Origin: Paludibacteraceae bacterium
Lineage (GTDB): Bacteria; Bacteroidota; Bacteroidia; Bacteroidales; Paludibacteraceae
NCBI GenBank assembly: GCA_024401555.1
Contig: JAKSKV010000002.1
Location: 110,467 to 174,466, forward strand
Length of the DNA stretch: 64,000 bases
Direction: 5' to 3'
Shown: positions 43,531 to 63,950 of the stretch, piece after piece
How positions within the stretch are numbered: the first letter of the stretch is position 1
Layout of the letters: each line of letters starts with the position of its first letter
Program-made: the position numbers and the translations under genes
The notes under the pieces: generated by a model
The model's input: only the letters and a program-made list of their open reading frames with translations
Databases searched by the model: none
What the model was told of the DNA's origin: nothing

Positions 43531-46500
43531 GAAGAAAGTCTCGGAGATAAAGGAACTAGTACTTGTCCTAAAGAAATTCAAGGTCTTAATCCTTGTTTTA
43601 GTGGAAGATGGTCTCGGAGAGTTGCAAGACAAGATTGAGAAGCTTGTTTCAATGTCTTAATCCTTGTTTTAGTGGAAGATGGTCTCGGAGAAAAGTTCAT
43701 CAAAGATGCAACAATTCAATCAATCAAAAGTCTTAATCCTTGTTTTAGTGGAAGATGGTCTCGGAGATCTTCAAGCAGTAACTGCAAAGTTAGGAAAGTG
43801 CAGGTCTTAATCCTTGTTTTAGTGGAAGATGGTCTCTGAGCTATTAATAAATGGTATAATGCTGCAACAACTAATGAGTCTTAATCCTTGTTTTAGTGGA
43901 AGATGGTCTCGGAGGACTCTTATTTGTGGTATTCAATGTGCAAGAGCACAAGTCTTAATCCTTGTTTTAGTGGAAGATGGTCTCGGAGAGTAAATAATGG
44001 CAGATAATAGAGATAGACAACAATCGTCTTAATCCTTGTTTTAGTGGAAGATGGTCTCTGAGCTATTAATAAATGGTATAATGCTGCAACAACTAATGAG
44101 TCTTAATCCTTGTTTTAGTGGAAGATGGTCTCGGAGGACTCTTATTTGTGGTATTCAATGTGCAAGAGCACAAGTCTTAATCCTTGTTTTAGTGGAAGAT
44201 GGTCTCGGAGAGTAAATAATGGCAGATAATAGAGATAGACAACAATCGTCTTAATCCTTGTTTTAGTGGAAGATGGTCTCGGAGAACGCAGAGAACAAAG
44301 TGTTCGATTGGCTAAATGCAACGTCTTAATCCTTGTTTTAGTGGAAGATGGTCTCGGAGAATGTTTCTCTCCATATAAACGAAGATTTCTAAGTAGTCTT
44401 AATCCTTGTTTTAGTGGAAGATGGTCTCGGAGTTTCTTTTTTTTTGCCGTTTTTTTTTTCGCCTTTGAAGTCTTAATCCTTGTTTTAGTGGAAGATGGTC
44501 TCGGAGAACTATTACAGAAAGAGTAAGAAGTATAAATCTAAAGTCTTAATCCTTGTTTTAGTGGAAGATGGTCTCGGAGCGTGCAGTGGCAAAAACTGCC
44601 GCAAGAAGAGATGTGAGTCTTAATCCTTGTTTTAGTGGAAGATGGTCTCGGAGAAGAAACCCATTACAGCAAACTAGAAAAAACTATTTAGTCTTAATCC
44701 TTGTTTTAGTGGAAGATGGTCTCGGAGCATCGAGGGTATTTCCGTTCGCTTTGCGGAGATTGTGTCTTAATCCTTGTTTTAGTGGAAGATGGTCTCGGAG
44801 TGTTAAGCTTTCAGACAGAGCTCAAGCTCGTCTTGAGTGTCTTAATCCTTGTTTTAGTGGAAGATGGTCTCGGAGAATCAAAAAGTTTGCTACTGAGTTT
44901 ATCTTAGATGTGTCTTAATCCTTGTTTTAGTGGAAGATGGTCTCGGAGATACTTCAATAGATAGTGTAGTACTCTATCCCGACAAAGTCTTAATCCTTGT
45001 TTTAGTGGAAGATGGTCTCGGAGTAAGTACTGAATTAAATAAAGGATTAAGAGGACAAGTCTTAATCCTTGTTTTAGTGGAAGATGGTCTCGGAGCTGAG
45101 CTTACGGTTACACGAGAGCTTCACCTTCAAGGAGTCTTAATCCTTGTTTTAGTGGAAGATGGTCTCGGAGTACTGGGAGAAATGCAGGTTCGCTAATAAT
45201 TACGAAAATGTCTTAATCCTTGTTTTAGTGGAAGATGGTCTCGGAGAACAATATTCCTAAATGGAAGATATGAACCAGAAATAGTCTTAATCCTTGTTTT
45301 AGTGGAAGATGGTCTCGGAGTGGCAGTTGGAGTTGGCGCTACAGTATATGTAGTGTCCAGTCTTAATCCTTGTTTTAGTGGAAGATGGTCTCGGAGAAAA
45401 CATTAATTAACATTAAAAACAATACGGATATGAAGTCTTAATCCTTGTTTTAGTGGAAGATGGTCTCGGAGCATATCCGACACAACAGTTTATTTAAATT
45501 AAACATTAAGTCTTAATCCTTGTTTTAGTGGAAGATGGTCTCGGAGTAATGGTAGAACTAAAGTAGATATTACATGTCCAATCCGTCTTAATCCTTGTTT
45601 TAGTGGAAGATGGTCTCGGAGTCTGAAACAAACAGGTTTATATCATTGGAATGGTGAGTCTTAATCCTTGTTTTAGTGGAAGATGGTCTCGGAGACGATA
45701 TCATTATGATGGGGACACAAATTATTGTGGATTGTCTTAATCCTTGTTTTAGTGGAAGATGGTCTCGGAGGTATAAGCACTATAAGCACTATATGAATTG
45801 GTAGTGTCTTAATCCTTGTTTTAGTGGAAGATGGTCTCGGAGCTAGGTCCATCCTCCCCCACCAATAAAAATTAAAAATTTTGTCTTAATCCTTGTTTTA
45901 GTGGAAGATGGTCTCGGAGGTGAGATATTTTGCGGTGATGCTGGGCTGGGTAGCGGGTCTTAATCCTTGTTTTAGTGGAAGATGGTCTCGGAGATTAGAG
46001 GTATTGTTCCATCTGTTGATGCTGAGACTGGTCTTAATCCTTGTTTTAGTGGAAGATGGTCTCGGAGAAGTATTGGAATTGCCGCAAGATGCAGCAAACC
46101 AAGTAGTCTTAATCCTTGTTTTAGTGGAAGATGGTCTCGGAGAATAAGAAGGCTTCATCTAAGAAGTAATTGGTTCCGGTGTCTTAATCCTTGTTTTAGT
46201 GGAAGATGGTCTCGGAGGCAGATTTGAAAGTTCAAGAGCAGAAGAGAATAGAGTCTTAATCCTTGTTTTAGTGGAAGATGGTCTCGGAGTTTTAACACTA
46301 AATTACAAAGAGTATGAAAATATTTTTGTCTTAATCCTTGTTTTAGTGGAAGATGGTCTCGGAGGTTGTGGCATTTGGATTTCAACACAAGAAGTTGCAG
46401 CTGTCTTAATCCTTGTTTTAGTGGAAGATGGTCTCGGAGAACAACCCGCCACGGCGAAGTTGTAGAGAAAGTTGAAATGTCTTAATCCTTGTTTTAGTGG

Positions 46501-46589
46501 AAGATGGTCTCGGAGTATTATTAACATTAACAATTAAAAAGAATGAAAGATTGTCTTAATCCTTGTTTTAGTGGAAGATGGTCTCGGAG
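43531..46589 (-). CRISPR. CRISPR array 1: 41 full repeats plus a degenerate distal repeat
   Basis: Repeats of 37 bp start GTCTTAATCC and end GGTCTCGGAG on the plus strand. The first full copy is 43583-43619 and the last 46553-46589; period 72-77 bp, spacers mostly 35-39 bp. A leader flanks the right end, so transcription is on the minus strand and the crRNA repeat ends in GGATTAAGAC, giving the 8-nt handle ATTAAGAC usual for type III. The left end has a degraded repeat (GGAAGAAAGTCTCGGAG, about 43530-43546). Repeats at 43804 and 44026 carry CTCTGAG instead of CTCGGAG. Units 4-6 are duplicated in tandem. The array is read through on the plus strand as repetitive peptides, which are not genes. 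Confidence 0.99.
43804..44247. repeat. Tandem duplication of three repeat-spacer units in array 1
   Basis: Segment 43804-44025 and segment 44026-44247 (222 bp each) are identical as far as I can read, including three spacers and the CTCTGAG variant in the first repeat of each copy. Confidence 0.95.
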
Positions 46590-46881
46590 AGTACATTTTG
46601 TAAATCGTTCAGTTTCATTGCGTTACGCAACAAAATCCAGAAAATTCATCAAAAATCACTCAAAAAAAGTACCATTTTTTCGGGGTGCAAAATTATAATT
46701 TTATCAAATATCTTCAAAGAACTTTTTAAAATAAATTTTCTTTCTGAAAATCAGTTACTTACACTGAAATCAAGGACAAAATTAGTAATTCATCCATTAT
46801 CTCGCAACAATTTTAGCGAAGAAATCACGGTTACTTAATTTATATGCGTACGAATATAGCTTTAACATAAAATTAACAATT
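46590..46881 (-). promoter_or_regulatory. CRISPR leader 1
   Basis: AT-rich 292 bp directly right of array 1, ending inside the stop codon of the HTH gene. It is a duplicate of leader 2: the array-distal block 46689-46881 is identical to 53223-53415, whereas the 100 bp next to the array differ at about 15 positions. On the minus strand a TTTG box (46718-46715) lies 19 bp before TAATTTTG (46695-46688), a good Bacteroidota promoter, so the array transcript would begin about 90 nt before the first repeat. Confidence 0.85.
46688..46718 (-). promoter_or_regulatory. Predicted array 1 promoter (TTTG-N19-TAATTTTG)
   Basis: Both boxes of the Bacteroidota consensus are present with 19-bp spacing, pointing toward array 1. 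Confidence 0.55.
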
Positions 46882-47593
46882 ATAGAACCGACATCAAAAG
46901 CAGCCTGTTATATGTTATCCGCTTCACCGACTCCGTCTTAAGAGAAGAATCCAAATGAGAAGACAAGATCTTCTTCTTAAAATTATCACAATTAGAGATT
47001 ATCCACTCCAGTACCAATTCTGCATCTTTCTTTGACAAACCAGATCGTACCATCGCCGCTATCCAATCTTTTCGCTCTATCAATCTTCTCTTTCCATTAA
47101 GGGGAAGAGGCAGTTCATCAGCAACCGAAGGTCTCTCCAACATATCCAGCAACAAATCATAATGCGGAGAAACAGGCAACCCAAATCCTTTAGATGAGGC
47201 TACAAACAAATGCTTATATGAAAAATCTAAGCATGCAGTCATCCACGAAAACATCACCCTTTTCCAAAAAGGAACAAGCTTAACAACAGACGAATGCGGG
47301 AGTATCATAACACTTGCGTACATATCATATGATGAACGGGCAACACGGACAAAATCTTCCGCCATAGCGAATTCAGCGGACAAGACACAATTCTCATCCT
47401 TAATCGATGGAGACATTTTGCAACCAAAGACAGACAACACCTGATTCACCTTATCCATCATAAGAGATTCTTTCCCTTGCTCAATAGACCTGATGAAACC
47501 TATTCCCACGCCGCTGCGATCTGCTAGATCTTGCTGGCTCATTCCCCATCGCCGACGCATCTGCTTTAGAAAGAAAGACAACTCGTTGACCAT
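46880..47593 (-). CDS. HTH (HipB-like) protein with HipA-type C-lobe remnant
   Basis: A 237-residue protein, last gene of the adaptation operon, 11 bp after cas2. Residues 6-58 are an XRE/HipB-type helix-turn-helix (MSQQDLADRSGVGIGFIRSIEQG). The remainder, about residues 75-205, looks to me like the C-lobe of a HipA kinase: AMAEDFVRV, then FSWMTACLDFSYKHL where HipA has its NxDxHxKN catalytic loop (Asp123 and Lys127 kept, the Asn and His replaced), then PVSPHYDLLLD like the HipA metal-Asp motif, then LPLPLNGKRR and WIAAMVRSGLSKKDAE. The ATP-binding N-lobe is missing, so kinase activity is unlikely. Probable DNA-binding regulator of the locus. The HipA match is by eye and moderate. Confidence 0.75.
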   Translation of the reverse strand: MVNELSFFLKQMRRRWGMSQQDLADRSGVGIGFIRSIEQGKESLMMDKVNQVLSVFGCKMSPSIKDENCVLSAEFAMAEDFVRVARSSYDMYASVMILPHSSVVKLVPFWKRVMFSWMTACLDFSYKHLFVASSKGFGLPVSPHYDLLLDMLERPSVADELPLPLNGKRRLIERKDWIAAMVRSGLSKKDAELVLEWIISNCDNFKKKILSSHLDSSLKTESVKRITYNRLLLMSVL

Positions 47594-47604
47594 ACTTTAA
47601 TCGA

Positions 47605-48093
47605 TTAAAAGAAAAGTGTGCTTTTGGAATGCGTGATTATATCCAAATTGATATTTTGACCAATAATCTTCATTGCCCGTAAATAATCCGTAGAGAGGGG
47701 AACTATCAAAATACTATCCTCATTTTCGTATGCGGCTTGCACCGCAGCTAAATCATTTCGTATGGTTTCATATACAGATGAATCCAAATCAGCCAAAAAG
47801 ATCGATTTCTGAACCCTTGTACAGCCCTTCTTCTCCAAATATTTGACAACTTGGTTACGAACCTTATTGCTTTCGATATCATACATAATAAAAAATAACA
47901 TATTCGTAGGCTTTCTTTGAAAATCATTGACAATACCCAACATTCTCTTTACGCGTTCATCAATACTCGGCATTTCTTCCACATCATTCTTTAGAGGATT
48001 CGGGCAAGTCGAACCATCCAATCCAGACCGAATGTACTTTTGCATCTTCTCAACAAATGAGAGTTCGCGCTTTTTCCCTTTTTTTTCATTCAT
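47605..48093 (-). CDS. cas2: Cas2 with N-terminal extension
   Basis: Spacer-integration partner of Cas1, normally 90-100 residues. Here it has 162. The Cas2 core starts near residue 63 (NMLFFIMYDIESNKVRNQVV, ending there; then KSIFLADL and ILIVPLS), with the ferredoxin-like beta-alpha-beta fold and the conserved Asp in YDIES. The first 60 residues (rich in Lys and acidic residues, with SFVEKMQKYIRSGLDG) have no match I recognise. The start overlaps the end of the primase-polymerase gene by 8 bp, and no internal start near residue 60 has a better context, so I keep the long form. Confidence 0.92.
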   Translation of the reverse strand: MNEKKGKKRELSFVEKMQKYIRSGLDGSTCPNPLKNDVEEMPSIDERVKRMLGIVNDFQRKPTNMLFFIMYDIESNKVRNQVVKYLEKKGCTRVQKSIFLADLDSSVYETIRNDLAAVQAAYENEDSILIVPLSTDYLRAMKIIGQNINLDIITHSKSTLFF

Positions 48094-49120
48094 GCTGCAG
48101 CTGATCGTAAGTGTCTATAAAAGTCTCCACCAATTGCGCTATCACCTCAGTCACATCGGAATCTGTTCCACTTTTCGTGGAACGCACCACACGGAATCCG
48201 TGTTTGCCATAGAAGAGATTGACCTCCGCCAGTTTGAGCCCGACTTTTACCATTATCTGTTTTCCATATTGGATACTCACAATTGACGAAACAACCGCAC
48301 CAGTCTTTTCTATGTAATTTTTCAGATCAAAAATTATATCTTCCAATATGCCAGGCACAAAAACCACCCTCTTCTCTTCCCGTTTGGCAGCCCTTGGGTT
48401 CAGAATCTCCTTGATGCGATGCATCGTTTCGTCACCAGGATCAATAGGAGCTTTTTCTTCAGGCGTATTTGGTTTGATTTCCTTCTGGTAGCGTTCTATC
48501 TCCCGTTTCTGTTCGAACAAAGCGAAAGTATTGCTTAAATCCACAAAAGCTTGTAGATCTACACGTTCAGCATTCGGATTATAATAGACCTTTTCATCGA
48601 CACTGATAAAACAAGCTCTTGTAACATCCGATGTTTTGGCGTCAACCACCTGTTCTATGCAGTACAGTTTGGAAAACGACGTGACGAAAGCCTTGTAGAA
48701 TATCGCATATAATCCGCTGTCGCAACACCTCTCCTTCAAACGAAACATCACCTTCAGTCCATCCTCGCTTGGAGAGAGAAACGAAAGAACCACCCGCTGA
48801 TCCGCTTCTATCTTTCTCCTTAGGCTCTCAATCTCCAATCCCTTCTCCGTTATATGATCAATATCCACAATAAAATATTCCGCATAGGCAAAATTCTCAG
48901 TCCTTCGGTATGGAGGGTTGAACATACCACAAACCACATAAGGCAATGTACGCTTCTGAGCTACATACTGCGAATGATCGATCTCCTGAAGAATACGCAA
49001 CTGTCTGATTTGAGATACAATTTCAGGACGTGGGTTGCGAATACTATGATATAGATATTCAACTTTTACCTTTTTCAAAGCATCATCTACCGCTCTAATA
49101 TTGGTTCCCGCATTTATCAT
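48086..49120 (-). CDS. CRISPR-associated primase-polymerase (CAPP, AEP family)
   Basis: A 344-residue archaeo-eukaryotic primase-like protein of the BT4734/VirE-N type. The three catalytic regions are visible: DxD as FIVDIDH (Asp86, Asp88), SPSEDGLKVMF at 116-126, and DAKTSDVTRACFIS at 160-173 followed by a VDE. In characterised CRISPR-associated primase-polymerases this domain primes and extends DNA or RNA strands and interacts with Cas1-Cas2. The C-terminal region (about 235-344) has AEVNLFYGKHGFRVV and SDVTEVIAQLVETF, unrecognised. It lies 14 bp after cas1 and overlaps cas2, so it is part of the adaptation module. I infer that it converts single-stranded or RNA-derived fragments to integrable duplexes. 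Confidence 0.85.
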   Translation of the reverse strand: MINAGTNIRAVDDALKKVKVEYLYHSIRNPRPEIVSQIRQLRILQEIDHSQYVAQKRTLPYVVCGMFNPPYRRTENFAYAEYFIVDIDHITEKGLEIESLRRKIEADQRVVLSFLSPSEDGLKVMFRLKERCCDSGLYAIFYKAFVTSFSKLYCIEQVVDAKTSDVTRACFISVDEKVYYNPNAERVDLQAFVDLSNTFALFEQKREIERYQKEIKPNTPEEKAPIDPGDETMHRIKEILNPRAAKREEKRVVFVPGILEDIIFDLKNYIEKTGAVVSSIVSIQYGKQIMVKVGLKLAEVNLFYGKHGFRVVRSTKSGTDSDVTEVIAQLVETFIDTYDQLQHE

Positions 49121-49134: not shown

Positions 49135-50118
49135 TTACTCGTCAAACTTCTTGAATTTTTGAGCTAGATTCTGGCAATAAAGAAAAATCTGCTGATTTCT
49201 ACTTCTACTGATTCCTCGCACATTGGTCACCTCTTCCAAGTAATCATTGAGAGATTGAATCAAAACACGCCTTCCCAAAGGTTCCAACCAATAAGATCCA
49301 TCCTCCTTTACAGAATAATAATCATCTGTTATGGAATTCTGCGACACCAACGAAAAAACGACATAATCTACCCAAACACGATACAACTCAATCACATCGT
49401 AAACCAATACGGGACGATTATAATCATCTCGGTGAAGGATGCCGATATAAGGATCCACCCCTGCCTTTATAAGCGATCCTTCTATCTTCCCATAAAGCAA
49501 GCCATATCCGTAATTCAACAGAGCATTCACCACATCCAACGCAGGATGTTGGCTTCTGTTTTGAAAACGAAGGTGTTCCGGAAGGAAGATATTCAATGTA
49601 TCAAAATAGATTTTAGAAGCTTGTCCCTCCCATCCTCTTAATTGAGCGGCCACGTCTGCCACAATATCACCGTCAAGCTTTCCAAGCTTTTCTCGATGAT
49701 CTTCCATTTTGGCGATTGATTTTGCAACCGATTCGTTTTGCGCCTCATTATCAGAACGAAACATAAGCAATAAAGCCTGTTGATTTTCTATCTTCTGCCT
49801 TAAGACTTCCTTGATCCATTCAAGTGCATCCTTGGAGAAAGAGAACGCTAATTGCCCCTTCCTGATGGTGGAAATAGAACCATACTTCGGGCTCCAGATC
49901 CGACCAATAACCGCACCTGCCTTATCGACGAACAACACCTCTATCTCCTTTTCCATAGCAAGCAGTACCGCATCACTTGATATCTGAGCACCTCTACTCA
50001 TCTGGATGCTAGTGATGCCTTCTGCAGGAATCCGTTGTTTTCCCTCTGCGGTCACAATAACAAACCCTTCATTGTCGCGAGACAGAGTCACGCCAAATGT
50101 ATTTAGAACTAATTCCAT
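49135..50118 (-). CDS. cas1: Cas1 integrase
   Basis: Metal-dependent integrase that inserts prespacers at the leader-repeat junction (327 residues). The N-terminal beta-sandwich (MELVLNTFGVTL, IPAEGITSIQMSRGAQIS quoted to 18) is followed by the helical catalytic domain with Glu164 in RGWEGQASKIYF, His229 in GILHRDDYNRP and the Asp241/Glu244 region in LVYDVIELYR. All metal ligands are intact. No reverse transcriptase or Cas6 is fused to it, unlike some other type III Cas1 proteins. It is 12 bp downstream of the TPR-OB gene. Confidence 0.98.
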   Translation of the reverse strand: MELVLNTFGVTLSRDNEGFVIVTAEGKQRIPAEGITSIQMSRGAQISSDAVLLAMEKEIEVLFVDKAGAVIGRIWSPKYGSISTIRKGQLAFSFSKDALEWIKEVLRQKIENQQALLLMFRSDNEAQNESVAKSIAKMEDHREKLGKLDGDIVADVAAQLRGWEGQASKIYFDTLNIFLPEHLRFQNRSQHPALDVVNALLNYGYGLLYGKIEGSLIKAGVDPYIGILHRDDYNRPVLVYDVIELYRVWVDYVVFSLVSQNSITDDYYSVKEDGSYWLEPLGRRVLIQSLNDYLEEVTNVRGISRSRNQQIFLYCQNLAQKFKKFDE

Positions 50119-50130: not shown

Positions 50131-51600
50131 TTACCGTACAACTTCAATTGACAATGCACGCCACCCCCATCTCTTTTTCTTTCTATCGAAACTGATGCAT
50201 GCAACACCTTTCACTATATTTCCGTGTGTAATACCCGATAAAAAGTGAGGCTCCACAAAAACATCTTCCACCATACCAAACGCCCCCTTGTTGAGGTATT
50301 TCCCTTCAAATTGCCTATAAAAAGAAGGATGAACTCGATCCAATTCTACTTCAACATTCCTGACCAACGTCGGTCGATCTTCACCAAGAGCATTCGCTTG
50401 AAAAGTAACCAAACTATCTTTTTTAATTTCTGGAAACTTTTTATCCATTTTGAAGAAACCCTGAATTTTGTCTTCCGTCACAAATGAGACCATACGTTTT
50501 TCTTCGTTAACATATGTCACCAAACAAGTAAACCTGCTTGGTTCTCCCAAAATCAAGCGTTCCGCTTTATCAGAGAATCGTCTATAAAACGGTTCATTGT
50601 TTCTGGTTGCAGTTGTCTGCATAAACCATTTCTCCACTTGGATATTGCGCAATCCATTTGTGAGGCTCCACCCTTTTCTTTTTCGTGCCTCTATAGCTCT
50701 CAATGCCTCATATTTCGCCTCCGACAAATGTCCCATATTAGCGAACAGCAATGCGGACTCTTCTCGCAACGACACCAACATCTCCTCCTTTCCTCCACAT
50801 GCCAATGCTTTACACAAAAAGGACATTTTCAAATCACAATCACTTTGGGTATCGGCGAGCATTTGCCACACCCAAAATTCACGGGACTTTAACCTTGCAA
50901 ATTGTTTTAATAGATCATAAGCAGCCTGTCCATCCCCTTTTTTCAACAACAATTTCGCCCAATAATAAGGAGGATAAACATATTCCTTATGTTGTTCGAT
51001 AACAGACCTGATATATGAAACGAAGCGAGTAATACTATCCTCTTCTCCTTCCCGCAAAAGTATCTTGGAGTAGCAGATAATCGCCCTCTCCGCAAGTGAC
51101 ATCATCTTAGATCCATTACTTAAAGTAACTTCATCGTAATCCTCACCACTTAGGTTGTCAAGTCCCCACCAGTCGATGAAAGATGATAAGTGCAACCACT
51201 TTCCTCCTAATCTTAAAGCTGCTGATAATACAGACGAATAGGCCTTCCCCTTTTGAGGGTGTGGCAACTGTTGGAGAGAAGATAGCAGCTGATCATACTC
51301 CGCACTTTTCGCATCCGCATCCGCCAACAACTTTCGCAAACTCCACATGACACTGTCCATCAGCATGGATTCTTCGTTGCCAAGATGCAGGGCGACCATT
51401 TCTTGTAACCAATGCAGATATTTACTGAAATCCCGATTAGTAGCACTTTGGTCTAGGTATTCATAAAGCACCCAGCCCATGGCTCGTTTGGTCCAGAGAT
51501 CATCCGGGGTATCTTTAAGAGCTTCCTCTGCAAGATGATACGCATCATCTATCTTTCCCTCCTTCCGAAGGGTAGAAATTTCTTGGAATGTGTTTTTCAT
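50131..51600 (-). CDS. TPR protein with two C-terminal OB-like domains
   Basis: First gene of the adaptation operon, 489 residues, cytoplasmic (no signal or TM). Residues 1-340 are helical repeats of TPR type (GKIDDAYHLAEEALKDTPDD, KLLLKKGDGQAAYDLLKQFA, GHLSEAKYEALRAIEARKR). From about 355 a small beta-barrel resembling a cold-shock/S1 OB fold appears (FTCLVTYVNEEKRMVSFVTE), and a second follows (FEGKYLNKGAFGMVEDVFV ... GVACISFDRKKKRWGWRALS). OB and CSD barrels of this kind usually bind RNA or ssDNA. TPR plus OB architectures occur in some NTP-dependent conflict systems, but I cannot name a family. Position right before cas1 (12 bp) and behind its own promoter suggests a role in spacer acquisition or its control. 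Confidence 0.8.
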   Translation of the reverse strand: MKNTFQEISTLRKEGKIDDAYHLAEEALKDTPDDLWTKRAMGWVLYEYLDQSATNRDFSKYLHWLQEMVALHLGNEESMLMDSVMWSLRKLLADADAKSAEYDQLLSSLQQLPHPQKGKAYSSVLSAALRLGGKWLHLSSFIDWWGLDNLSGEDYDEVTLSNGSKMMSLAERAIICYSKILLREGEEDSITRFVSYIRSVIEQHKEYVYPPYYWAKLLLKKGDGQAAYDLLKQFARLKSREFWVWQMLADTQSDCDLKMSFLCKALACGGKEEMLVSLREESALLFANMGHLSEAKYEALRAIEARKRKGWSLTNGLRNIQVEKWFMQTTATRNNEPFYRRFSDKAERLILGEPSRFTCLVTYVNEEKRMVSFVTEDKIQGFFKMDKKFPEIKKDSLVTFQANALGEDRPTLVRNVEVELDRVHPSFYRQFEGKYLNKGAFGMVEDVFVEPHFLSGITHGNIVKGVACISFDRKKKRWGWRALSIEVVR

Positions 51601-53123: not shown

Positions 53124-53415
53124 AGTACCTTTTGTAAATCTTTCATTTCCATCGCTTTATGCGACAAAAACCAGAAAATCCATCAAAATTCTCTCAAAAA
53201 AAACACCATTTTTTCGGGGTGAAAAATTATAATTTTATCAAATATCTTCAAAGAACTTTTTAAAATAAATTTTCTTTCTGAAAATCAGTTACTTACACTG
53301 AAATCAAGGACAAAATTAGTAATTCATCCATTATCTCGCAACAATTTTAGCGAAGAAATCACGGTTACTTAATTTATATGCGTACGAATATAGCTTTAAC
53401 ATAAAATTAACAATT
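53124..53415 (-). promoter_or_regulatory. CRISPR leader 2
   Basis: Duplicate of leader 1, same length and position relative to its array. The -33 TTTG (53252-53249) is conserved, but the -7 element reads TAATTTTT (53229-53222) instead of TAATTTTG, losing the conserved G. The remaining 49 bp up to the helicase stop hold nothing recognisable. Confidence 0.85.
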
Positions 53416-54919: not shown

Positions 54920-55282
54920 TTATAAATATTTTCTAAATGCCACAAATGAAAACTGAACCTCTTTCCTTCCCTCCCCGTAATCCTTAACAATACGTTCTGT
55001 GGTAGAAGCGACGCACTGGATATTTCGTTGCTTCAGTTTGCGGACAACCGAAAAGGAGAAAGTCATTTCCCCCATAATATGGACGACAAAAGAGGAACCA
55101 TTAGCCATATCAAATATACGAGAAATATATTCATCCGACAACTGGTCGATGTAAAGGTCATCTCCACTGGGATCAACAGCAGGGAAAGAGAGATCCAGAA
55201 TGCCTCCATACACTCGGATAGCCTCTTCCATTTGAGACTGGCTCCACTTTGATGATGGATGATTGGATAGGTTGATTAGCAT
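54920..55282 (-). CDS. Small CRISPR-linked protein, candidate Csx15/16/20-type
   Basis: A 120-residue soluble protein lying 3 bp before the helicase and 15 bp after the CARF-HEPN gene. N-terminal MLINLSNHPSSKWSQSQ and the following ILDLSFPAVDPSGDD, then SFVVHIMGEMTFSFSVVRKL, look like a compact alpha/beta Rossmann-type domain. Small single-domain proteins of the Csx15/Csx16/Csx20 group, related to CARF and acting as ring nucleases or cyclic-oligoadenylate binders, sit in similar places in type III loci, and the LNxSHP-like start is reminiscent of them. I am not certain of the family. Confidence 0.6.
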   Translation of the reverse strand: MLINLSNHPSSKWSQSQMEEAIRVYGGILDLSFPAVDPSGDDLYIDQLSDEYISRIFDMANGSSFVVHIMGEMTFSFSVVRKLKQRNIQCVASTTERIVKDYGEGRKEVQFSFVAFRKYL

Positions 55283-55297: not shown

Positions 55298-56611
55298 CTA
55301 AGACAACAAGAGGCCAAAACCCTCAATACATTTTTTGATATTCTGCTTTATATTATCAGGCTTTAGAGGCATTCGTCTAGACCTCATCCCTGAATGATTA
55401 AAATCATTCCTTACTTCCCTTAGGTTATTAAATAAGTTCACGAGCTCATGATTTTCTAAGAGTTCATCAGAAAGTACTTCTTTTAATTTGGATTTATTTT
55501 CATTCTTAACTTTACTCCAATTGTCCCCATTTTCTACCTCTTGATGGTTAAACTTCAAATTGAGAGCCTGGTTAATAATTTCTCGTTCGTCCTCATTATC
55601 AATCATTATATTATGACGCAAACAAAAGAACGTAACGACATACTCTTGTAAAATAGTTGCAGACTGTTGATACAGTCCATTTTCATAACACCATTTCGCC
55701 GCAGCATACCCATTCTTAGCATTTTCGAATTCATCAAATGACACCAAAGACTCCTTTATTTTTTCAATAATTGGAGTAAGAGGATTAATTAACGACTCCT
55801 CTATTTTTATCATACTTGATTTCAAATCTCTCAAACTATCAGATTTGATAATACTAAGGCCTCTACAAGTTTGTCGTTCCTTAATAACATCGTTTAATCC
55901 ACAAATGAACTTGTTAATAGCCAAGGCACTTTCATTTGTTCCTTTAAAATGTTTTAGAATTGGTTTCAATTCTTCTCGACCAAGAGCAACCAATTTCGAA
56001 ACATTTCCACTATCAATGTATTGTCCAGCAGCAAAAGTCCAATCTTGCAAAGAGGAAAGAGAAGTCAAGTCCATGATTGGTTTCTCGGTCGTCTCAACCA
56101 TAAAATTTCCATATGTAATAGATTTCACACTAACATTCTTTAAAAACTTTACATAATTGATGAGGACCAACAATAACATCGGTAAGTATCGAAGTGCATG
56201 AGTTATATCAAAATACAATTCATCACCTTCGTTTATAACACTATATATGGTATTAAAGATATCCCATATTTCGCTTTCATCACGACCATCCACAATAGGT
56301 TGAGGGATTATTTTCATAGGGAATCTTTCCTTCCTTAATATATCCAGAAGACCTTCTTTTTCAACAATAGCCCCTTCTTGAGTTTTTGTTTTTCCTATTT
56401 CCCACTGATTCGTTTTGGCTTTATCTGTTAACAATATTATTACCGAATCTTGACTGGTCCACAAATCGTTGCTTGAAGCTGACCTATTCAATATACTTTT
56501 CAATGTAGCCAACTGAATATATCGTGTAGCACATTTCACCAAGCCATCTGTGTACACACATTCACTATATGGACCTATTCCCAAAATAGATATAAAGACC
56601 TTTCTTCCCAT
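55298..56611 (-). CDS. CARF-HEPN RNase, Csx1/Csx2 (TM1812) family
   Basis: A 437-residue cyclic-oligoadenylate-activated ribonuclease. The N-terminal CARF domain has MGRKVFISILGIGPYSEC, typical of the TM1812 subgroup, and the ligand-binding motif DITHALRYLP (residues 135-144). The C-terminal HEPN domain has its R-x4-H motif as RNDFNH (Arg401, His406). On binding cOA such enzymes cut RNA non-specifically, producing dormancy or abortive infection. Located between the Card1-like gene (14 bp) and the small Csx candidate. Confidence 0.88.
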   Translation of the reverse strand: MGRKVFISILGIGPYSECVYTDGLVKCATRYIQLATLKSILNRSASSNDLWTSQDSVIILLTDKAKTNQWEIGKTKTQEGAIVEKEGLLDILRKERFPMKIIPQPIVDGRDESEIWDIFNTIYSVINEGDELYFDITHALRYLPMLLLVLINYVKFLKNVSVKSITYGNFMVETTEKPIMDLTSLSSLQDWTFAAGQYIDSGNVSKLVALGREELKPILKHFKGTNESALAINKFICGLNDVIKERQTCRGLSIIKSDSLRDLKSSMIKIEESLINPLTPIIEKIKESLVSFDEFENAKNGYAAAKWCYENGLYQQSATILQEYVVTFFCLRHNIMIDNEDEREIINQALNLKFNHQEVENGDNWSKVKNENKSKLKEVLSDELLENHELVNLFNNLREVRNDFNHSGMRSRRMPLKPDNIKQNIKKCIEGFGLLLS

Positions 56612-56625: not shown

Positions 56626-57780
56626 TTACTTCGTATTTATATTAAACAACTCCGTATTCAACAATAAAAACAACGCCGATTCAGAAGACATTCCTAGATG
56701 AGAATCCTGCAAAGAGAATGGTATAATGCTATTTTCTTCGCATTTTTTTTGGGCTATTTCACTCATTGGAGCATCTGTCACAAACAACGCCTTACTTCCC
56801 ATGCCTCCATAAGCTTTTACAACACTTCTAAACTTATCAATATCTGTTGTGTGGGTAATTTGTGTCTTACACTCAACGAATAGCAATTTGGTTCCCGTGT
56901 TGACAATTATATCGGTCTCATTCTTATCAACCTTGGGTTTATATGGGAAATGACAATTCATGCAAATCTCCTTTGATCGATCCCACTTGGAGAGCATCAA
57001 CGCAACTTTATACTCAAACCAACCCGAATTAAAAACCAAATCCACAACATGAGGAGATTCCAAAACTACTTCTTTGCATATGCCATTTTTCTTGTACAAA
57101 CATAATCTAACAAAACCAACCTCTTCTGTCGTTGTCTTCTGCCACTCCACATAAGAATAAGAGGAGTTTGATGTTCTCAACAGATCAAAACGCCCATAAG
57201 GTTGGGTTCTCAGGACTGTCTGTTTCTGTTGGTCCAAAACAGTCGTGAGAGCATTGAAGTCACGATTATTGAAACTTCTCATTTGCTCAATATCGCTAAT
57301 TACACCTTCATCATCACCCGTATAATCACTAAAACGCTTGTAGTTATTTTCTATAGAATTACCATATAGACGAAACAAAGTATGCATATCAAAAAGGAAC
57401 CCCTCCTGTTTTTCCATACTTCGGTAATTCCATAACACATTGTTTTGATCCATATAAACAACAGAGGCATTAGGACAATTATCGAATACACGACCAAACA
57501 AATGAGACCATGACTTCAGTCCACTTGATATGTTTACAGTAACCTCTTCCTTTTCATATTTTTTTGCCAATCGCTCTGCTAAAAGCACTATCTCTTGTGG
57601 ATCAGTTGGAGATAATGGAGGCACATCGTCACAAGGAATATCAATCTCTTTCTTAAGCGTGTCAAGTACCGATTGACTGCCTACGGAATACACATAGACA
57701 ACTCTATCTGGATTAGTAGCGACAATACCATGATACACAGGAGCCGGTTGCCCTCCTACCAATGTTATATGAACCTTCAT
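56626..57780 (-). CDS. CARF nuclease, Card1/Can2 type (DUF1887)
   Basis: A 384-residue cOA-dependent nuclease. N-terminal CARF domain with the motif NISSGLKSW (residues 83-91). C-terminal PD-(D/E)xK nuclease with Glu256 (GWFEYKVALML), Asp290 (NETDIIVN) and FVECK (Glu303, Lys305). Characterised Card1/Can2 enzymes degrade ssDNA, RNA or nick DNA on cA4 or related ligands. It starts 7 bp after the upstream small gene stops. Confidence 0.9.
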   Translation of the reverse strand: MKVHITLVGGQPAPVYHGIVATNPDRVVYVYSVGSQSVLDTLKKEIDIPCDDVPPLSPTDPQEIVLLAERLAKKYEKEEVTVNISSGLKSWSHLFGRVFDNCPNASVVYMDQNNVLWNYRSMEKQEGFLFDMHTLFRLYGNSIENNYKRFSDYTGDDEGVISDIEQMRSFNNRDFNALTTVLDQQKQTVLRTQPYGRFDLLRTSNSSYSYVEWQKTTTEEVGFVRLCLYKKNGICKEVVLESPHVVDLVFNSGWFEYKVALMLSKWDRSKEICMNCHFPYKPKVDKNETDIIVNTGTKLLFVECKTQITHTTDIDKFRSVVKAYGGMGSKALFVTDAPMSEIAQKKCEENSIIPFSLQDSHLGMSSESALFLLLNTELFNINTK

Positions 57781-57787
57781 AAGTTAG

Positions 57788-58536: not shown

Positions 58537-59637
58537 CTACACGAGAGTCAATTTCACGAAGCCCATCATAGAATAGACGCCATTGTCTATAGCAATCTTT
58601 CTTGATTTATATTTAATTTTACCATTATTCTTCCCTGAATCCCAAACCCCAGTATTAACAAAATCGTCATATTGCCAATCTCCAGTGATAGAATGGAATC
58701 CAGCACCAGCAGACATCTTCAGTATGCACGATTGATTATCTTCAAGTAAATCATTTGTTTGATTCAATAAACTAGTCAACGATTTTATGATCTTCTCCGA
58801 ATTATCAGCTTGACGATAACATTTGAAGAAATCCAATTCTTTTTTAATATAATCGTACGTGTGATTGTTTATCTCATAAAATAGATTCTCAATGGGATCA
58901 TACTCTTCATCTGAAAACAACTCTTGTTTTTTCTCTTTATGGGGTTGATCACCATTGAAATTATCAAACAATGTTTTGGATAGTGAAATTGTTGTCTTTG
59001 CCTTATCCCCGACACACAAACACTCATACACAGTATTGAACCCAGTCATTTGAAATTTTGAATCTGTACCATTCTGAAACGCATGTTTCCATCCACCTTC
59101 CCATACTCCGTCAACTTTATGCAGGTTGAAAATTTTTGTGTTTATTAACACCGTATTTTCAAAATCCGCATCACTTATCCTAACGAAACGCATAAAGTCA
59201 GATCCATCTTTAATTTTACCAAACACCTCTTCTGTTTTATTTTCGTTATCTCTAAAAGATGAGAATAATACAGATCTAATTGCTCCTTTTAGAGAACTTC
59301 CTACCAAAATAGGTTTTCCGGTTAGTTGGTTCTTGACAAATGACTTCACATCATTATCACTTTGTGCAGGCATTGGCAAAACAAAATCAGACACCTGTTT
59401 CAATCTTCCTGAAAGTTTGGATATTATCGCTTTTTCATTTTTGTTGGAAAAACAAGCGCTGAGTTCGTCAAGACTAAATCCAAATGCTAACATTTTCTTC
59501 AGATTAAGCTTGTATAGGTTCCCATTGTCAACCACAAAATCAACACCTCTAGCCCAGTCTTTTTCTGCTCCTGCACCAATTGATAGAGGTGTCAACACCT
59601 CTATTTCAATGTTGTATTTGTTATTTATGCCATCCAT
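58537..59637 (-). CDS. csm5: Csm5
   Basis: Type III-A RAMP subunit that caps the crRNA 3' end side of the Csm complex. N-terminal IEIEVLTPLSIGAGAEKDW and GKPILVGSSLKGAIRSVLF (residues about 8-26 and 100-120 counting from this Met) are RAMP motifs. I start at the ATG at 59637 (MDGINNKYN), one base after the csm4 stop; the longer frame would overlap csm4. About 366 residues. Confidence 0.93.
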   Translation of the reverse strand: MDGINNKYNIEIEVLTPLSIGAGAEKDWARGVDFVVDNGNLYKLNLKKMLAFGFSLDELSACFSNKNEKAIISKLSGRLKQVSDFVLPMPAQSDNDVKSFVKNQLTGKPILVGSSLKGAIRSVLFSSFRDNENKTEEVFGKIKDGSDFMRFVRISDADFENTVLINTKIFNLHKVDGVWEGGWKHAFQNGTDSKFQMTGFNTVYECLCVGDKAKTTISLSKTLFDNFNGDQPHKEKKQELFSDEEYDPIENLFYEINNHTYDYIKKELDFFKCYRQADNSEKIIKSLTSLLNQTNDLLEDNQSCILKMSAGAGFHSITGDWQYDDFVNTGVWDSGKNNGKIKYKSRKIAIDNGVYSMMGFVKLTLV

Positions 59638-59638
59638 A

Positions 59639-60640
59639 TCAATTAACTTTAATTGGTAAAAACAAAGCTCGTCCACACCGCCAAACAGGGTGGTTAAGAC
59701 TACTATCCCAATCTGGTTTTAAATCCACGCCGACCTTTCCATGAATATTTACACCATTACTCGCCGATTTGAAAACAGATCCTGCAGAAAAAGAGTAAAT
59801 CACATTTTTTCTCAAAGAGTTGTGAGGTGGTGTTGTAATCCAACCTCCTCGACGTTGAAAATCGTATGCTACGTTATTTGATGCAAGCATAGATGCGATC
59901 TGCTCTTTATTTTCAGGAATAAAAGAAGAAAGAGACATCGAATATTCGGCAACATCAGGGAACTCTATCTCGAGTGAACTCAAGTTAAATTCAAAATAAC
60001 CGTTTCCAACATTTCTGTCAGTTCCAATGCCTTCACTTTGAAGAAGATCCAAAGCCTTCTCTAGCGAATCCGTATCTCCTTTAGCAAGAAAGAATAATCC
60101 AGAGCAATCCTTAAAAACAACTCTATCCATATGAAATGGTTTTGCATCCTCTTGACCATCCCGTGACACAGTTACTCTTGATGAAACCTGAGATGACATA
60201 AAATCCTTATCAATTTCCATATCGGTCATATATATACCTTTTATGGAACGGGCTATCGTGTTGTCATCAAAAAGTTGTTCTCCTTTTAATACTTTTGAAA
60301 AATATTTTTCATCAAGCCATGTTACTTTTTTCACCTTCTTTCGCTCTTCTGATGCTTTCTCTGAAGAAGGGAGCGTTTGTTTTAACGGCTTTGGAAAAAA
60401 ATAAACAGCTTTTGATTCCGTATCCTTTTGATAAAAAGGAAACAAATTGCTGATAGTACATCCTAAATCGCCATCTTTTGGAATTTCCTGGCCTAATTTA
60501 GCAAGACAAGAAATCAAAGCGGCATACATAGTGTCAGAATTGATTGTTTTAAGACTGACACTATAATCGTCGCGAGAATCACCTAAGTGTAATGGCGAAG
60601 TAAAATGCAGTTTGTATATTTTAAACTGTTGCTTTGCCAT
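59639..60640 (-). CDS. csm4: Csm4
   Basis: RAMP subunit (333 residues) that holds the crRNA 5' handle and contacts Cas10. N-terminal YKLHFTSPLHLGDSRDDY and SDTMYAALISCL are characteristic, and GIGTDRNVGNGYFEF is the glycine-rich loop. It is 3 bp after csm3. Confidence 0.93.
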   Translation of the reverse strand: MAKQQFKIYKLHFTSPLHLGDSRDDYSVSLKTINSDTMYAALISCLAKLGQEIPKDGDLGCTISNLFPFYQKDTESKAVYFFPKPLKQTLPSSEKASEERKKVKKVTWLDEKYFSKVLKGEQLFDDNTIARSIKGIYMTDMEIDKDFMSSQVSSRVTVSRDGQEDAKPFHMDRVVFKDCSGLFFLAKGDTDSLEKALDLLQSEGIGTDRNVGNGYFEFNLSSLEIEFPDVAEYSMSLSSFIPENKEQIASMLASNNVAYDFQRRGGWITTPPHNSLRKNVIYSFSAGSVFKSASNGVNIHGKVGVDLKPDWDSSLNHPVWRCGRALFLPIKVN

Positions 60641-60643
60641 ATT

Positions 60644-61279
60644 TTATGCCTTCCAATTGTTTTTTTCAGATAATTCAGTTTGCGTCAACTCTCCAAACTT
60701 GATTTGTCCATAACCACGCGATCCGCTTCCTCCCAAATAGTCATTTTCAAGAGCATTCATGCCCTTTTTTAAGAGAGATAGCAATTTCTCTTCATCGTCA
60801 TTATCCCACACATTGATTACAAATTCAACATTGAATAATACCCCCGCAGGAATACGTTCTGTTTGACGCGGATGTTCTGCAGTTCCCTTCACTCGATCAA
60901 TCACATTTTCCCATTTTCCTTCAGTATAAGGCATATCCAAATTGTCATTTTCACGAAGTTTCTTTGCCGAATCTGTAGTTAACAATGAGTCGCGAACAAT
61001 TAGCTTAGAAGGTTGATTGCTTTTTGAAAATCCAAATAGATTATTAACTTCAGCATCTCCTCCAACATTTGCAGATCCAGCTATCTGCTCAAGCAAACAA
61101 CGCATTTTACCTTTCAGTGAACTTCCCGGAATATATGGTTGGTTATCTTTTGTTGCAATTTTAATTACTGGGTTATCGATACCTCCAATCTCCACATTGT
61201 CTCCACTACCTCCGATGTGAAGACCTGTCAATAAATCTAAAGTGGTGTTTATTTTGATTTTTTTTACTAATTTTTCCAT
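60644..61279 (-). CDS. csm3: Csm3 (backbone RNase)
   Basis: Repeated backbone RAMP subunit (211 residues) that cuts target RNA at 6-nt intervals. TTLDLLTGLHIGGSG, IGGIDNPVIK with the catalytic Asp35, IPGSSLKGKMR and GSGSRGYGQIKF are intact. It is 17 bp after csm2. Confidence 0.96.
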   Translation of the reverse strand: MEKLVKKIKINTTLDLLTGLHIGGSGDNVEIGGIDNPVIKIATKDNQPYIPGSSLKGKMRCLLEQIAGSANVGGDAEVNNLFGFSKSNQPSKLIVRDSLLTTDSAKKLRENDNLDMPYTEGKWENVIDRVKGTAEHPRQTERIPAGVLFNVEFVINVWDNDDEEKLLSLLKKGMNALENDYLGGSGSRGYGQIKFGELTQTELSEKNNWKA

Positions 61280-61296
61280 TTTCCTCTACATTAAAA

Positions 61297-61722
61297 TTAC
61301 AAATTGATTTTTTCTTCAGCAGTTTTATGATAAGCAACGATTGCTTCAAAAATTTTTATGAAATTTTTGAAATCTTGCTCTGTTCTTACTTTATCAATAG
61401 CATCAGCTATAACAAAATAGAAATCTTTTATCTTTGCATCCTTCTCTTTTGCTCTACCCACTGCATACGCCAACTTTGGCTTCAAAAGAACAAAGTCAGT
61501 TTCGTTATAACCTGACATTTGTTGACGCTTCACCTCTCCGAAGAACTTACGAAGTTGGTTTGTAGTCAAATGATTTTTTGCACTCACTAACCTACCATTC
61601 TTTTCAAAAGAGTCATCTTTTCCCAAATAAGATCCAAACTCTTTTGCAAAATCAACGGTTACTGAAGTTACCTTTTCAGTAATCTCAGTTTTTGGAATTA
61701 ATTTCTGTTTATCCCAAGCCAT
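61297..61722 (-). CDS. csm2: Csm2 (small subunit)
   Basis: Small helical subunit (141 residues) along the target RNA strand in the Csm complex. ARG/Lys-rich helices and the segment NHLTTNQLRKFFGEVKRQQ, together with FYFVIADAIDKV, fit the Csm2 family. Between cas10 and csm3. Confidence 0.93.
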   Translation of the reverse strand: MAWDKQKLIPKTEITEKVTSVTVDFAKEFGSYLGKDDSFEKNGRLVSAKNHLTTNQLRKFFGEVKRQQMSGYNETDFVLLKPKLAYAVGRAKEKDAKIKDFYFVIADAIDKVRTEQDFKNFIKIFEAIVAYHKTAEEKINL

Positions 61723-61733
61723 AATTTTCTATT

Positions 61734-63179
61734 TTAATTGTTAATTTTCTTATTTCTCAAATCCAATTCCGCCCAACGTGCAGCAAGACCTATCAGGCGG
61801 AAATTATTTATTTTAACAAGCTGTTTGTCTCGCAAATCTTTGCAAAAACTTACGATTTCCATCTTTTTACTATTTGACTCTATGAAACGAGTCAAGTAAT
61901 AAACAGTATGCCACATGAAACTTATTGAATTACTCTCTTTTGCCTTTTCGGAATAGGTCATCATCTTATGAAGAATTCCTCGTGATAGACCATATTCATT
62001 AATTAGAGAAACGAACTGCTTCTTGTATTTCAAAACATAGTCAAACTCTTCGTCCCATGATACGGTTTCCCCCAGGAAACAGAATGCATTTTTCTTTTTA
62101 TCCTTGTATTCGTAAGATTTTGCCTTATCTTCCGCTTCACCTGCTAATTCCGCAGATTTAGCTATCGGGAATTTTCCTCCGACAATAGCCACACCGCCCG
62201 AAAGAGATACACCTTCTTTTCCTATGTATTCAACAAATTCATTTCTCACCTCTGCGGCAAAATCAATCACAACATCCCATCTTCCTATTGCGAATATATC
62301 ATCACCTCCAGCATATACAATATTCATATCATCTTTGTATTTGTCTTGCTTCTTGATTTGATATAAACTACCTTTCTCCGCATCGAAAAACGCATCTAAC
62401 TTTCTCGAAAAAGACTTATATTCATCCATCGAAGGGAATCCGTCAATAAAAACTTTTCCAAGTCCATCAACATCCATTCTCAAAACACCTAAATATGAAC
62501 CTTTAGCATACTCCTCTAACGTTTTGAAATGATACTTATCTCGAAGTTGTTGTCCCAATTGAACCTGTTCTTTTACAGACGGCAAAATCCAAATTTCATC
62601 ACCATCTGTGTCTTTTACAAGTTTTACACAGTCTTCACTTTCAACCCCTGTAATTGCACATACCTTTTGCTTGTCACCAATCTTCTTGACTTCAAAAAAA
62701 TCATTATATTTATCTATCAACAAGTCCCTGAATTTCTGATTCTTCAGATTCTGAAACTTTTCGGTCAAAACTTTCCACAACAAACCTATCGTATCTTCAT
62801 TGCCATCTACAATCACTCGTTCTCTTTTATTATTTGTATATTCAAAAGAGACATAGGCAATATTAATACTTAACTGTCCGTTATGTTCTTTCCAAAGTTC
62901 CTTCGACACTTCACAATAAACCTCGTCAATACGATCCCTAACAATATCACTATCGGGAACTTGTAAATAAAACTTACCTCCTGAACAATAAATATTATCT
63001 GTTTCCTGAGATGTTTTAACTTCTGGTATATTCAAAATTCTTTCACACACTTTCTGTGTATATTCTTTCAAAAAAGCTGATCGTCCCTTAAGACTGACCA
63101 TAGCCTTTTTAGAAGAGATATTGTAAATAAATTTTTGAATTCCAGCTAAATCGCCACCAACAAACAACATCTTACTCAT
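61734..63179 (-). CDS. csm1: Cas10/Csm1 lacking the HD nuclease domain
   Basis: Large subunit of the type III-A complex, about 481 residues from the ATG at 63179, which has a strong AGGAGG five bases upstream. A Met 33 bp earlier exists but has no such site. The protein starts directly in the first palm domain (MLFVGGDLAGIQKFIYNIS), so the usual N-terminal HD ssDNase of about 250 residues is absent. The second palm domain is intact: MRMDVDGLG near residue 236 and YAGGDDIFAIG with GGDD at 291-294, the cyclic-oligoadenylate synthase site. The zinc-finger region shows only CAITGVESEDC. The complex should signal but not cut DNA. Confidence 0.95.
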   Translation of the reverse strand: MSKMLFVGGDLAGIQKFIYNISSKKAMVSLKGRSAFLKEYTQKVCERILNIPEVKTSQETDNIYCSGGKFYLQVPDSDIVRDRIDEVYCEVSKELWKEHNGQLSINIAYVSFEYTNNKRERVIVDGNEDTIGLLWKVLTEKFQNLKNQKFRDLLIDKYNDFFEVKKIGDKQKVCAITGVESEDCVKLVKDTDGDEIWILPSVKEQVQLGQQLRDKYHFKTLEEYAKGSYLGVLRMDVDGLGKVFIDGFPSMDEYKSFSRKLDAFFDAEKGSLYQIKKQDKYKDDMNIVYAGGDDIFAIGRWDVVIDFAAEVRNEFVEYIGKEGVSLSGGVAIVGGKFPIAKSAELAGEAEDKAKSYEYKDKKKNAFCFLGETVSWDEEFDYVLKYKKQFVSLINEYGLSRGILHKMMTYSEKAKESNSISFMWHTVYYLTRFIESNSKKMEIVSFCKDLRDKQLVKINNFRLIGLAARWAELDLRNKKINN

Positions 63180-63221
63180 TCCTACCTCCTTCCTTGTTCG
63201 AAAAAAAATCACTCATATAAT

Positions 63222-63902
63222 TCATATCTTATTCATTCTAAAAATCATTCCAAATCCCAAGCTCACCCCTTTTCCCAATCCCACATAATCAGGCAATGAG
63301 ACATTGCTTTTAAATTCGACATCGAAGCCCATCATCTTCACACCTTTATGAGTATAAGTATGAGTTCCCAAGATATTCTGAATCACACATGAGACCTCCT
63401 TCTCCATGGTAACATCCACCCCTTTACAGAAAGACAAAACATTGCCAACGAGAATCTTTTGCAAGAAAGCGCACTGTTCAACGATACCATTCAAGGAAAG
63501 ATATGTACGATAGTTTTCAGAACTCAACGGCAACCACTTACGAATAACATACCTAAACTCATTATCCCAAACCTGAATCAATGTGCGTTTAGCATCTACA
63601 TGGTCGATCTCCATATTTTCTATGCGATCTCCTATCTCAAAAGAGAAATTAGCGTTACTGAAAAAATCACCTATTACCTCAGTTCCTTCTCCAACACATA
63701 CCAATGCGGCTCGTTTATTAATTCTTTTGTATTGAATCAATGGATAACGATACCGTAACTCATCATCATTCAGATGATTGTGGAACAAAACATTTGCGTC
63801 CTCCATTGCATGAATAACACTGCCGCGAAACAAGGGTATTTCCCAAGAGGCTATTTCATTCTTGAACTGTATAATTAACGTCTGAACATTTTGAGTTTTC
63901 AT
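63222..63902 (-). CDS. cas6: Cas6 pre-crRNA endoribonuclease
   Basis: Cuts the array transcript inside repeats to give the ATTAAGAC 5' handle. About 226 residues from the Met of MKTQNVQTLII (63902); the frame remains open with Mets to 63950. Two ferredoxin-like domains; the C-terminal glycine-rich loop VGLGKGVSLGFGMIF is the Cas6 hallmark. The N-terminal FRGSVIHAME segment and the first-domain loop YRYPLIQYKRINKRAAL are typical of a Bacteroidota Cas6 subgroup. The catalytic residue (a His in many) is not fixed. First gene of the operon as seen here. Confidence 0.85.
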   Translation of the reverse strand: MKTQNVQTLIIQFKNEIASWEIPLFRGSVIHAMEDANVLFHNHLNDDELRYRYPLIQYKRINKRAALVCVGEGTEVIGDFFSNANFSFEIGDRIENMEIDHVDAKRTLIQVWDNEFRYVIRKWLPLSSENYRTYLSLNGIVEQCAFLQKILVGNVLSFCKGVDVTMEKEVSCVIQNILGTHTYTHKGVKMMGFDVEFKSNVSLPDYVGLGKGVSLGFGMIFRMNKI

Positions 63903-63950
63903 GGTACAACATTTTCTCATCGCTAAATTATGAAAATTATTTAAAATCAT

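Follow-up and report, generated by a model that had tools for sequence, protein, structure and literature searches.

For class B of the CRISPR-associated primase-polymerases (CAPPs), the reference is the DbCAPP operon of a Dysgonomonadaceae bacterium, published as CAPP_B (PMC8211822). DNA-dependent priming and polymerization within class B has been published for DbCAPP only, and its D86A+D88A double mutant is inactive (PMC8211822). The available text of that paper calls the C-terminus diverse and smaller, and in it we found no mention of a TPR-OB partner, a TBP-like domain or PDC-M16 (PMC8211822). Here we analyzed a class B locus in 64,000 nt of contig JAKSKV010000002.1 from a Paludibacteraceae bacterium; this whole stretch is called the window, and all coordinates are window positions. 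The locus resembles CAPP_B in having CAPP between cas1 and cas2, the same active-site numbering, a RecD-like helicase and a type III setting in Bacteroidota.

Further groups of systems are close to this locus. In PDC-M16 of PADLOC (PDC presumably stands for phage defence candidate), an M16A helicase with C-terminal TBP-like repeats lies beside M16B. The TPR-OB protein of the window is an M16B protein and its helicase matches the M16A models as a sister lineage, but this helicase ends at 483 amino acids (aa), the TBP-like repeats are on CAPP instead, and the genes sit with cas1 and cas2. The TOTE conflict systems are named after TPR, OB, TBP and Effector (PMC12458937). Like them, the window has TPR with DUF7017 and S1-CSD-TOTE domains, and it has a candidate TBP-like domain; in contrast, the effector position appears to be taken by the CRISPR acquisition machine CAPP-Cas1-Cas2. 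CAPP class A of Marinitoga piezophila also has a TPR region attached to CAPP near cas1 and cas2; it differs in that this region is N-terminal and about 100 aa long and the C-terminus is PriCT-like, and the available text gave no mention of S1-CSD (PMC8211822). Acquisition of RNA spacers is linked to a reverse transcriptase beside or fused to Cas1. Of the 17 locus proteins scanned (7 against PADLOC, including two or three that were compared with Pfam as well), none matched a reverse transcriptase, and Cas1 here is 327 aa long.

We favor, with moderate confidence, a CAPP class B module for spacer acquisition, in which a TOTE-like kit of TPR-OB, TBP-like domain and RecD-like helicase has been rearranged and cooperates with Cas1-Cas2 and the primase-polymerase. 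The CAPP-cas1-cas2-RecD core is known; what is new is that the CAPP C-terminus, the lineage of the helicase and the TPR-OB gene connect it to TOTE and PDC-M16. In the open-licence literature searched, as far as its text was available, we found no link of CAPP to TOTE, TBP-like domains or PDC-M16. The original prediction, made from the sequence alone, had found no described system to which the gene set could be matched. This holds for the association of TPR-OB with CAPP but not for the core, already published as CAPP_B (PMC8211822).

CAPP, Cas1 and Cas2

The operon genes and the helicase of the window are as follows.

50131..51600, minus strand: TPR-OB, with TPR/DUF7017 and two S1-CSD-like domains of TOTE type; PADLOC PDC-M16B (family scans)
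49135..50118, minus strand: cas1 (family scans)
48086..49120, minus strand: CAPP class B, with an AEP domain at about residues 1-205 and a TBP-like C-terminal domain at about 256-340 (family scans, alignment, fold comparison)
47605..48093, minus strand: cas2, extended at the N-terminus by about 64 aa (family scans)
46880..47593, minus strand: helix-turn-helix (HTH) gene, encoding a HipB domain joined to a HipT kinase of which just the C-terminal half is present, predicted to be kinase-dead (family scans, PDB matches)
53465..54916, minus strand: RecD/PIF1-like SF1 helicase without TBP-like repeats (family scans, tree, repeat model scan)

The first five form an operon as predicted, with 12 bases between TPR-OB and cas1, 14 between cas1 and CAPP, an 8-base overlap of CAPP and cas2, and 11 bases between cas2 and the HTH gene.

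CAPP was identified as class B by NF040562 (E 4e-122, 407.8 bits against a cut-off of 200). This match and the published CAPP_B agree with the association of such enzymes with cas1, cas2 and type III loci that the original prediction had stated (PMC8211822). For comparison, a pattern scan of species genomes yielded 89 candidate stretches, 58 of which encode CAPP-B; with the window they make 59 CAPP-B loci, near-copies such as L079 and L082 being counted separately. Gene presence across these loci was scored by iterated profile search. The predicted motifs DID (86-88), SPSEDGLK and DAKTSDVTR are all in place, and D86, D88, S116, P117, D120, G121, K123, D160, T163, D165 and R168 are invariant in all 55 CAPPs of at least 300 aa. 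Structure comparison of the model supports an AEP fold for the N-terminal part. A misalignment of the motifs could be ruled out by the invariant residues, this fold and the inactivated Asp pair of DbCAPP, which is that of the window CAPP (PMC8211822).

The C-terminus carries the link to PDC-M16. Its profile score against the TBP-like repeats of PDC-M16A helicases was 45.8, compared with 23.5 for the top of 75 controls. As judged by profile comparison, the two are homologous; where M16 has the TBP-like domain on its helicase, the CAPP-B loci have it on the primase-polymerase.

All 59 loci have cas1 and 55 have cas2; in the four without it (L047, L053, L078, L086) the sequence ends within about 250 bases of CAPP. 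Residues E164, H229, D241 and E244 of Cas1 were kept in 57/57 cases. An N-terminal extension of 57-107 aa was present in each of the 55 Cas2 proteins, and it is possible that it serves as a docking arm for CAPP or the helicase.

The AEP part (residues 13-201) also matched the PADLOC model of the reverse transcriptase-associated VirE-PriCT2 protein of DRT systems (E 4e-24), which is possibly a relative of this part outside CRISPR. A recent phage origin of CAPP-B was considered and rejected: the best 80 of 514 viral relatives match only query residues 2-255, at 24-36% identity. The window CAPP matched no PDB sequence. In L058, L084 and L087, CAPP is split into two open reading frames (ORFs), by decay or sequencing error.

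The helicase and TPR-OB across CAPP-B loci

The window helicase matched the M16A models with an E value of 3e-121. Its family was found in 37 of the 59 loci, counting also fragments and a few copies that lie outside the operon; this number is the 39 found by profile minus L062 and L064. In these two, a 681-aa PIF1-like helicase of another lineage lies about 360-380 bases upstream of cas1, replacing the usual helicase. In a tree of 37 rows, 29 helicases of CRISPR loci and 8 M16A helicases were on opposite sides of a single branch with 100/100 support. The tree omits L062, L064, L040, L033, L082, L195 and L197, which are unrelated, near-copies or very divergent. By this placement, the locus helicase is a sister lineage of PDC-M16A, dedicated to CRISPR. 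A first, wider tree, which held a CARF-HEPN row from a Runella plasmid as well as L040 and L062 and had very long branches, was superseded. It gave two label changes for the CRISPR rows and three for the M16A rows, and one change without the three rows labelled as nearby genes; L072 carried such a nearby-gene label there and the CRISPR label in the 37-row tree.

The TBP-like end separates the two lineages also in domain content. None of the 31 CRISPR helicases, 464-544 aa long, matched profiles of the M16A or CAPP C-terminus. In contrast, all 8 M16A proteins, as well as those on a Chryseobacterium plasmid and an E. coli plasmid, have one or two C-terminal TBP-TOTE domains (PF22721). For comparison, 14 M16B loci were fetched from outside CAPP loci, and an M16A helicase adjoins M16B in 8 of them. 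Stand-alone pairs are also present on plasmids (L206, L207). In the related genomes L202 and L204, a type III cas10-csm locus is found opposite such a pair, and L202 additionally has a fused, Cas4-Cas1-like Cas1 close by.

The TPR-OB of the window matched PADLOC PDC-M16B (E 2e-115) and, in Pfam, PF22860 (132.1 bits) and PF22707 (57.2 bits), both over their cut-offs; PF22708 reached 26.5, just below its 27. Its three PDB matches (best E 0.38) were not useful. TPR-OB was present in 19 of the 59 loci, 16 detected by iterated profile and three (L069 and two fusions) by a wider profile; in 18 loci, each covered for 1.6 kb or more to either side, it was scored as absent, and 22, including L056, could not be decided. 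The wider profile was run against a background of 970 ORFs of at least 150 aa from other fetched loci, and its sole match was the true TPR-OB gene of an Algoriphagus locus. Operons of Algoriphagus and Belliella contain both TPR-OB and the helicase. The survey asked for by the original prediction thus supported TPR-OB as a recurring neighbor, but not the HTH gene, found in 1/59 loci, so that the set of five genes as a whole is not conserved.

All 17 separate TPR-OB genes lie against cas1 or cas2: 4 upstream of cas1, 11 co-directional downstream of cas2 and 2 convergent behind cas2. For the 15 co-directional genes the gaps, calculated from mechanically assigned starts, ranged from -43 to 133 bases. 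In the remaining two loci, L066 and L089, CAPP itself is extended, to 760 and 752 aa, by TPR repeats followed by a cold-shock-like end. In these fusions, about 300 residues of the TPR part can be aligned with TPR-OB (profile E 2e-19 and 3e-22), but the cold-shock end matches it only weakly (domain E about 0.7).

In the TPR-OB tree (34 rows), which is limited by long branches, 6 CRISPR rows formed a clade of their own (100/100), L041 and L061 grouped with a stand-alone row, and 12 CRISPR and 3 stand-alone rows formed a mixed clade. The plain reading is that TPR-OB was gained or exchanged several times and not inherited with CAPP, so that its recruitment would be a repeated event. Such repeated recruitment to one position would speak for a function of TPR-OB in the module.

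Short N-terminal remnants resembling TPR-OB lie behind cas2 in L046 and L056; that of L056 (86 aa, E 2e-5) was missed by tblastn at 1e-4 and is not among the 19. They suggest decay of TPR-OB in a Prevotella group. Elsewhere, the TPR-OB search matched 68 plasmid records, mostly of Klebsiella, Escherichia and Acinetobacter, and the gut phage contig MT835724 (L208, unannotated) encodes a relative that covers 74% of the query. An independent find was a Runella plasmid, which carries an annotated RecD-like helicase, III-B genes, CAPP-B, cas2, cas1, a CARF-HEPN gene and TPR-OB. The gene between its cas1 and TPR-OB was considered as a helicase, which was ruled out, as it encodes the CARF-HEPN protein.

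A proposed acquisition module and competing explanations

The TBP-like domain on CAPP, the helicase lineage dedicated to CRISPR, and TPR-OB repeatedly against cas1 or cas2 or fused behind the TBP-like domain of CAPP are the observations on which the acquisition module is based. The TOTE-like kit around CAPP-Cas1-Cas2 probably locates invader nucleic acid and opens it so that prespacers can be synthesized. Together, the TBP-like domain of CAPP and the S1-CSD domains of TPR-OB would hold invader nucleic acid that is exposed, either as single strands or as RNA-DNA hybrids at intermediates of replication or transcription. We infer this recognition from domain families and the fusions. The helicase, docked on Cas1, would then open the nucleic acid; a Cas1-helicase contact has been published from yeast two-hybrid work. 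On the published biochemistry of its relatives, CAPP would start with a ribonucleotide and copy the freed DNA strand to give a duplex prespacer. Cas1-Cas2 would insert this prespacer next to the shared leader, with the Cas2 extension as a potential docking arm, and strand displacement by CAPP, again as in its relatives, could fill in the new repeat.

Several observations weigh against this module. TPR-OB is not obligatory, being absent from the 18 loci mentioned, and its tree requires 7 changes between CRISPR and stand-alone labels. On the Runella plasmid it adjoins the CARF-HEPN gene and not cas1. Six of the 14 stand-alone M16B loci showed no adjoining M16A (one is cut by a contig end and one has a weak M16B match). 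The window CAPP gave no direct match to TBP-TOTE (PF22721), and the CAPP C-terminus profile missed 3 of the 8 M16A proteins. With the model of the C-terminus, Foldseek returned nothing at E<=0.001 and RnlA at E 0.01; the fold Z scores were 8.9 for the best RnlA row and 8.0 for an AMPK structure, and TBP was absent among the fold matches listed, as was RNase HIII, although such absences are no proof. Fold support for a TBP-like domain on CAPP is thus modest. The N-terminal domain of RnlA (RNase LS) shares about 17% identity with the CAPP C-terminus, but CAPP lacks an RnlA-type HEPN RNase.

The absence of TPR-OB from those loci and its independent movement would be expected if TPR-OB, and perhaps the helicase, were passengers from a separate defence system, brought in by defence-island clustering, and the stand-alone M16 pairs on plasmids and near other type III loci (L202, L204) fit this as well. 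We consider it unlikely, given the operon-like contact in 15 of 17 cases, the two CAPP-TPR-CSD fusions, the dedicated helicase lineage and the TBP-like domain inside CAPP itself. The M16B model matched just 16 of 395 phylum genomes while 17 of the 59 loci have TPR-OB in contact with cas1 or cas2, which would be far above chance, so that a chance contact is not credible. The same parts could instead act after integration: CAPP and the helicase would resolve the spacer-repeat intermediate and fill gaps, and the TBP-like domain and TPR-OB would hold the array rather than invader nucleic acid. Both tested CAPPs are strong in strand displacement and can take a half-site substrate apart; for MpCAPP, displacement of a post-synaptic substrate has been published as well (PMC8211822). 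The almost identical leaders of both arrays could be recognized by a DNA-binding partner. Such a role seems rather unlikely to us, as these domains are also found in stand-alone systems that have no adjoining cas1 (for example L191 and L193), where there is no array to hold, and repair would need no TPR-OB of conflict-system type.

The description of TOTE as TPR-OB, TBP and effector (PMC12458937) suggests yet another explanation, in which the TOTE-like parts provide the type III locus with an additional effector arm that attacks invaders directly, with CAPP drawn in as effector and adaptation secondary. Stand-alone M16A proteins can have a nuclease-like N-terminus (NERD in L197, an HsdR-like match in the E. 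coli plasmid protein), and the Runella TPR-OB is next to an effector gene. However, the CAPP-B helicases leave no room for a nuclease part (all 31 ORFs above 440 aa are 464-544 aa), and the 17 surveyed TPR-OB genes contact cas1 or cas2, not effector genes; we regard this explanation as quite improbable. The idea in the original prediction that CAPP copies RNA, giving RNA-derived spacers without a reverse transcriptase, fits the lack of a reverse transcriptase match in our scan and the residual RNA-template activity of both tested CAPPs (PMC8211822). It is disfavored, and in our view very improbable, because DbCAPP and MpCAPP favor DNA templates, and their dNTP incorporation on RNA is not efficient, with much lower activity (PMC8211822).

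A narrower form of the acquisition module can be proposed, although we hold it only as a doubtful suggestion. A TOTE-type sensor of RNA-DNA hybrids would determine where CRISPR memory is taken from. Invader R-loops or primer hybrids would be found by TPR-OB and the TBP-like domain of CAPP, the helicase would strip the strand, and CAPP would copy the DNA into prespacers. If so, memory would come preferentially from transcribed or replicating invader DNA, the source required by a type III system that targets RNA, and no reverse transcriptase would be involved. To our knowledge, it is unclear how type III systems without a reverse transcriptase choose useful spacers. If CAPP-B acquisition rests on the TOTE recognition kit, a little-studied defence family would offer a testable handle on prespacer selection. 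A family would also be assigned to the CAPP-B C-terminus and to the RecD-like gene, the PADLOC candidate PDC-M16 would be tied to a defined biochemical setting, and TOTE/PDC-M16 would gain a biochemically tractable relative.

Arrays, effector genes and the HTH gene

On the minus strand, the locus runs cas6, cas10/csm1, csm2-5, a DUF1232 gene, a 102-aa gene, Card1-like CARF-PDDEXK, CARF-HEPN, Csx20, helicase, array 2, TPR-OB, cas1, CAPP, cas2, HTH gene and array 1. Its remaining features are as follows.

63222..63950, minus strand: cas6 (family scan)
61734..63212, minus strand: cas10/csm1, 492 aa, GGDD present (family scan and sequence)
61297..61722, minus strand: csm2 (family scan)
60644..61279, minus strand: csm3 (family scan)
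59639..60640, minus strand: csm4 (family scan)
58537..59676, minus strand: csm5 (family scan)
58166-58504, minus strand: DUF1232 gene, between csm5 and the CARF genes (family scan)
57788-58096, minus strand: 102-aa protein with no family match (family scans)
56626..57780, minus strand: CARF-PDDEXK (Card1-like) effector (family scans)
55298..56611, minus strand: CARF-HEPN (Csx1/Csm6-like) effector (family scans)
54920..55282, minus strand: Csx20 (family scans)
53124..53414, strand not assigned: leader of array 2 (near-identity to the array 1 leader)
51681..53123, minus strand: CRISPR array 2, 20 repeats and 19 spacers, with a degenerate repeat at the low, leader-distal end (repeat analysis)
46590..46880, strand not assigned: leader of array 1 (near-identity to the array 2 leader)
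43583..46589, minus strand: CRISPR array 1, 41 repeats of 37 nt and 40 spacers, leader at the high coordinate (repeat analysis)

Family scans matched cas10/csm1, csm2-csm5 and cas6, in agreement with the predicted type III-A assignment. Cleavage of DNA by Cas10 is doubtful because the protein is short and no HD domain was matched in the family scan. Homologs of the 102-aa protein lie near a Card1-like or Csx20 gene in L032, L033, L063 and L064. For the DUF1232 gene, no profile match was found in the other 58 CAPP-B loci.

The HTH gene, expected to be HipB/HipA-like, has a HipB domain but only the C-terminal half of a HipT kinase: residues 4-59 match HipB (8ezt, E 2e-5) and 103-188 match that half (8ezr, E 4e-5). 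The N-terminal half of the kinase, present in complete HipT/HipA kinases of HipBST/HipBA toxin-antitoxins, is missing. The D, H, K, N of the HipT loop, which we take to be the catalytic loop, read D, S, K, H. Among the matches listed for the protein, just its own spans the HTH and kinase-like parts in full. Its restriction to the window excluded it as a part of the unit. Probably, it is the remnant of a HipB-HipT fusion that now serves at most as a DNA-binding regulator. It lies directly beside the array 1 leader.

Both arrays are flanked on the high-coordinate side by a nearly identical leader (300 nt, 95%). Their orientation was set by this common leader and by the degenerate last repeat of array 2. 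Searches of the spacers of both arrays against 50,697 phage records gave no match, nor did an exact search of IMG/VR with a 35-nt spacer that occurs four times in array 2 (52313, 52385, 52457 and 53052), the leader-proximal position among them. Array 1 has a tandem duplication of three spacers (43841-44211).

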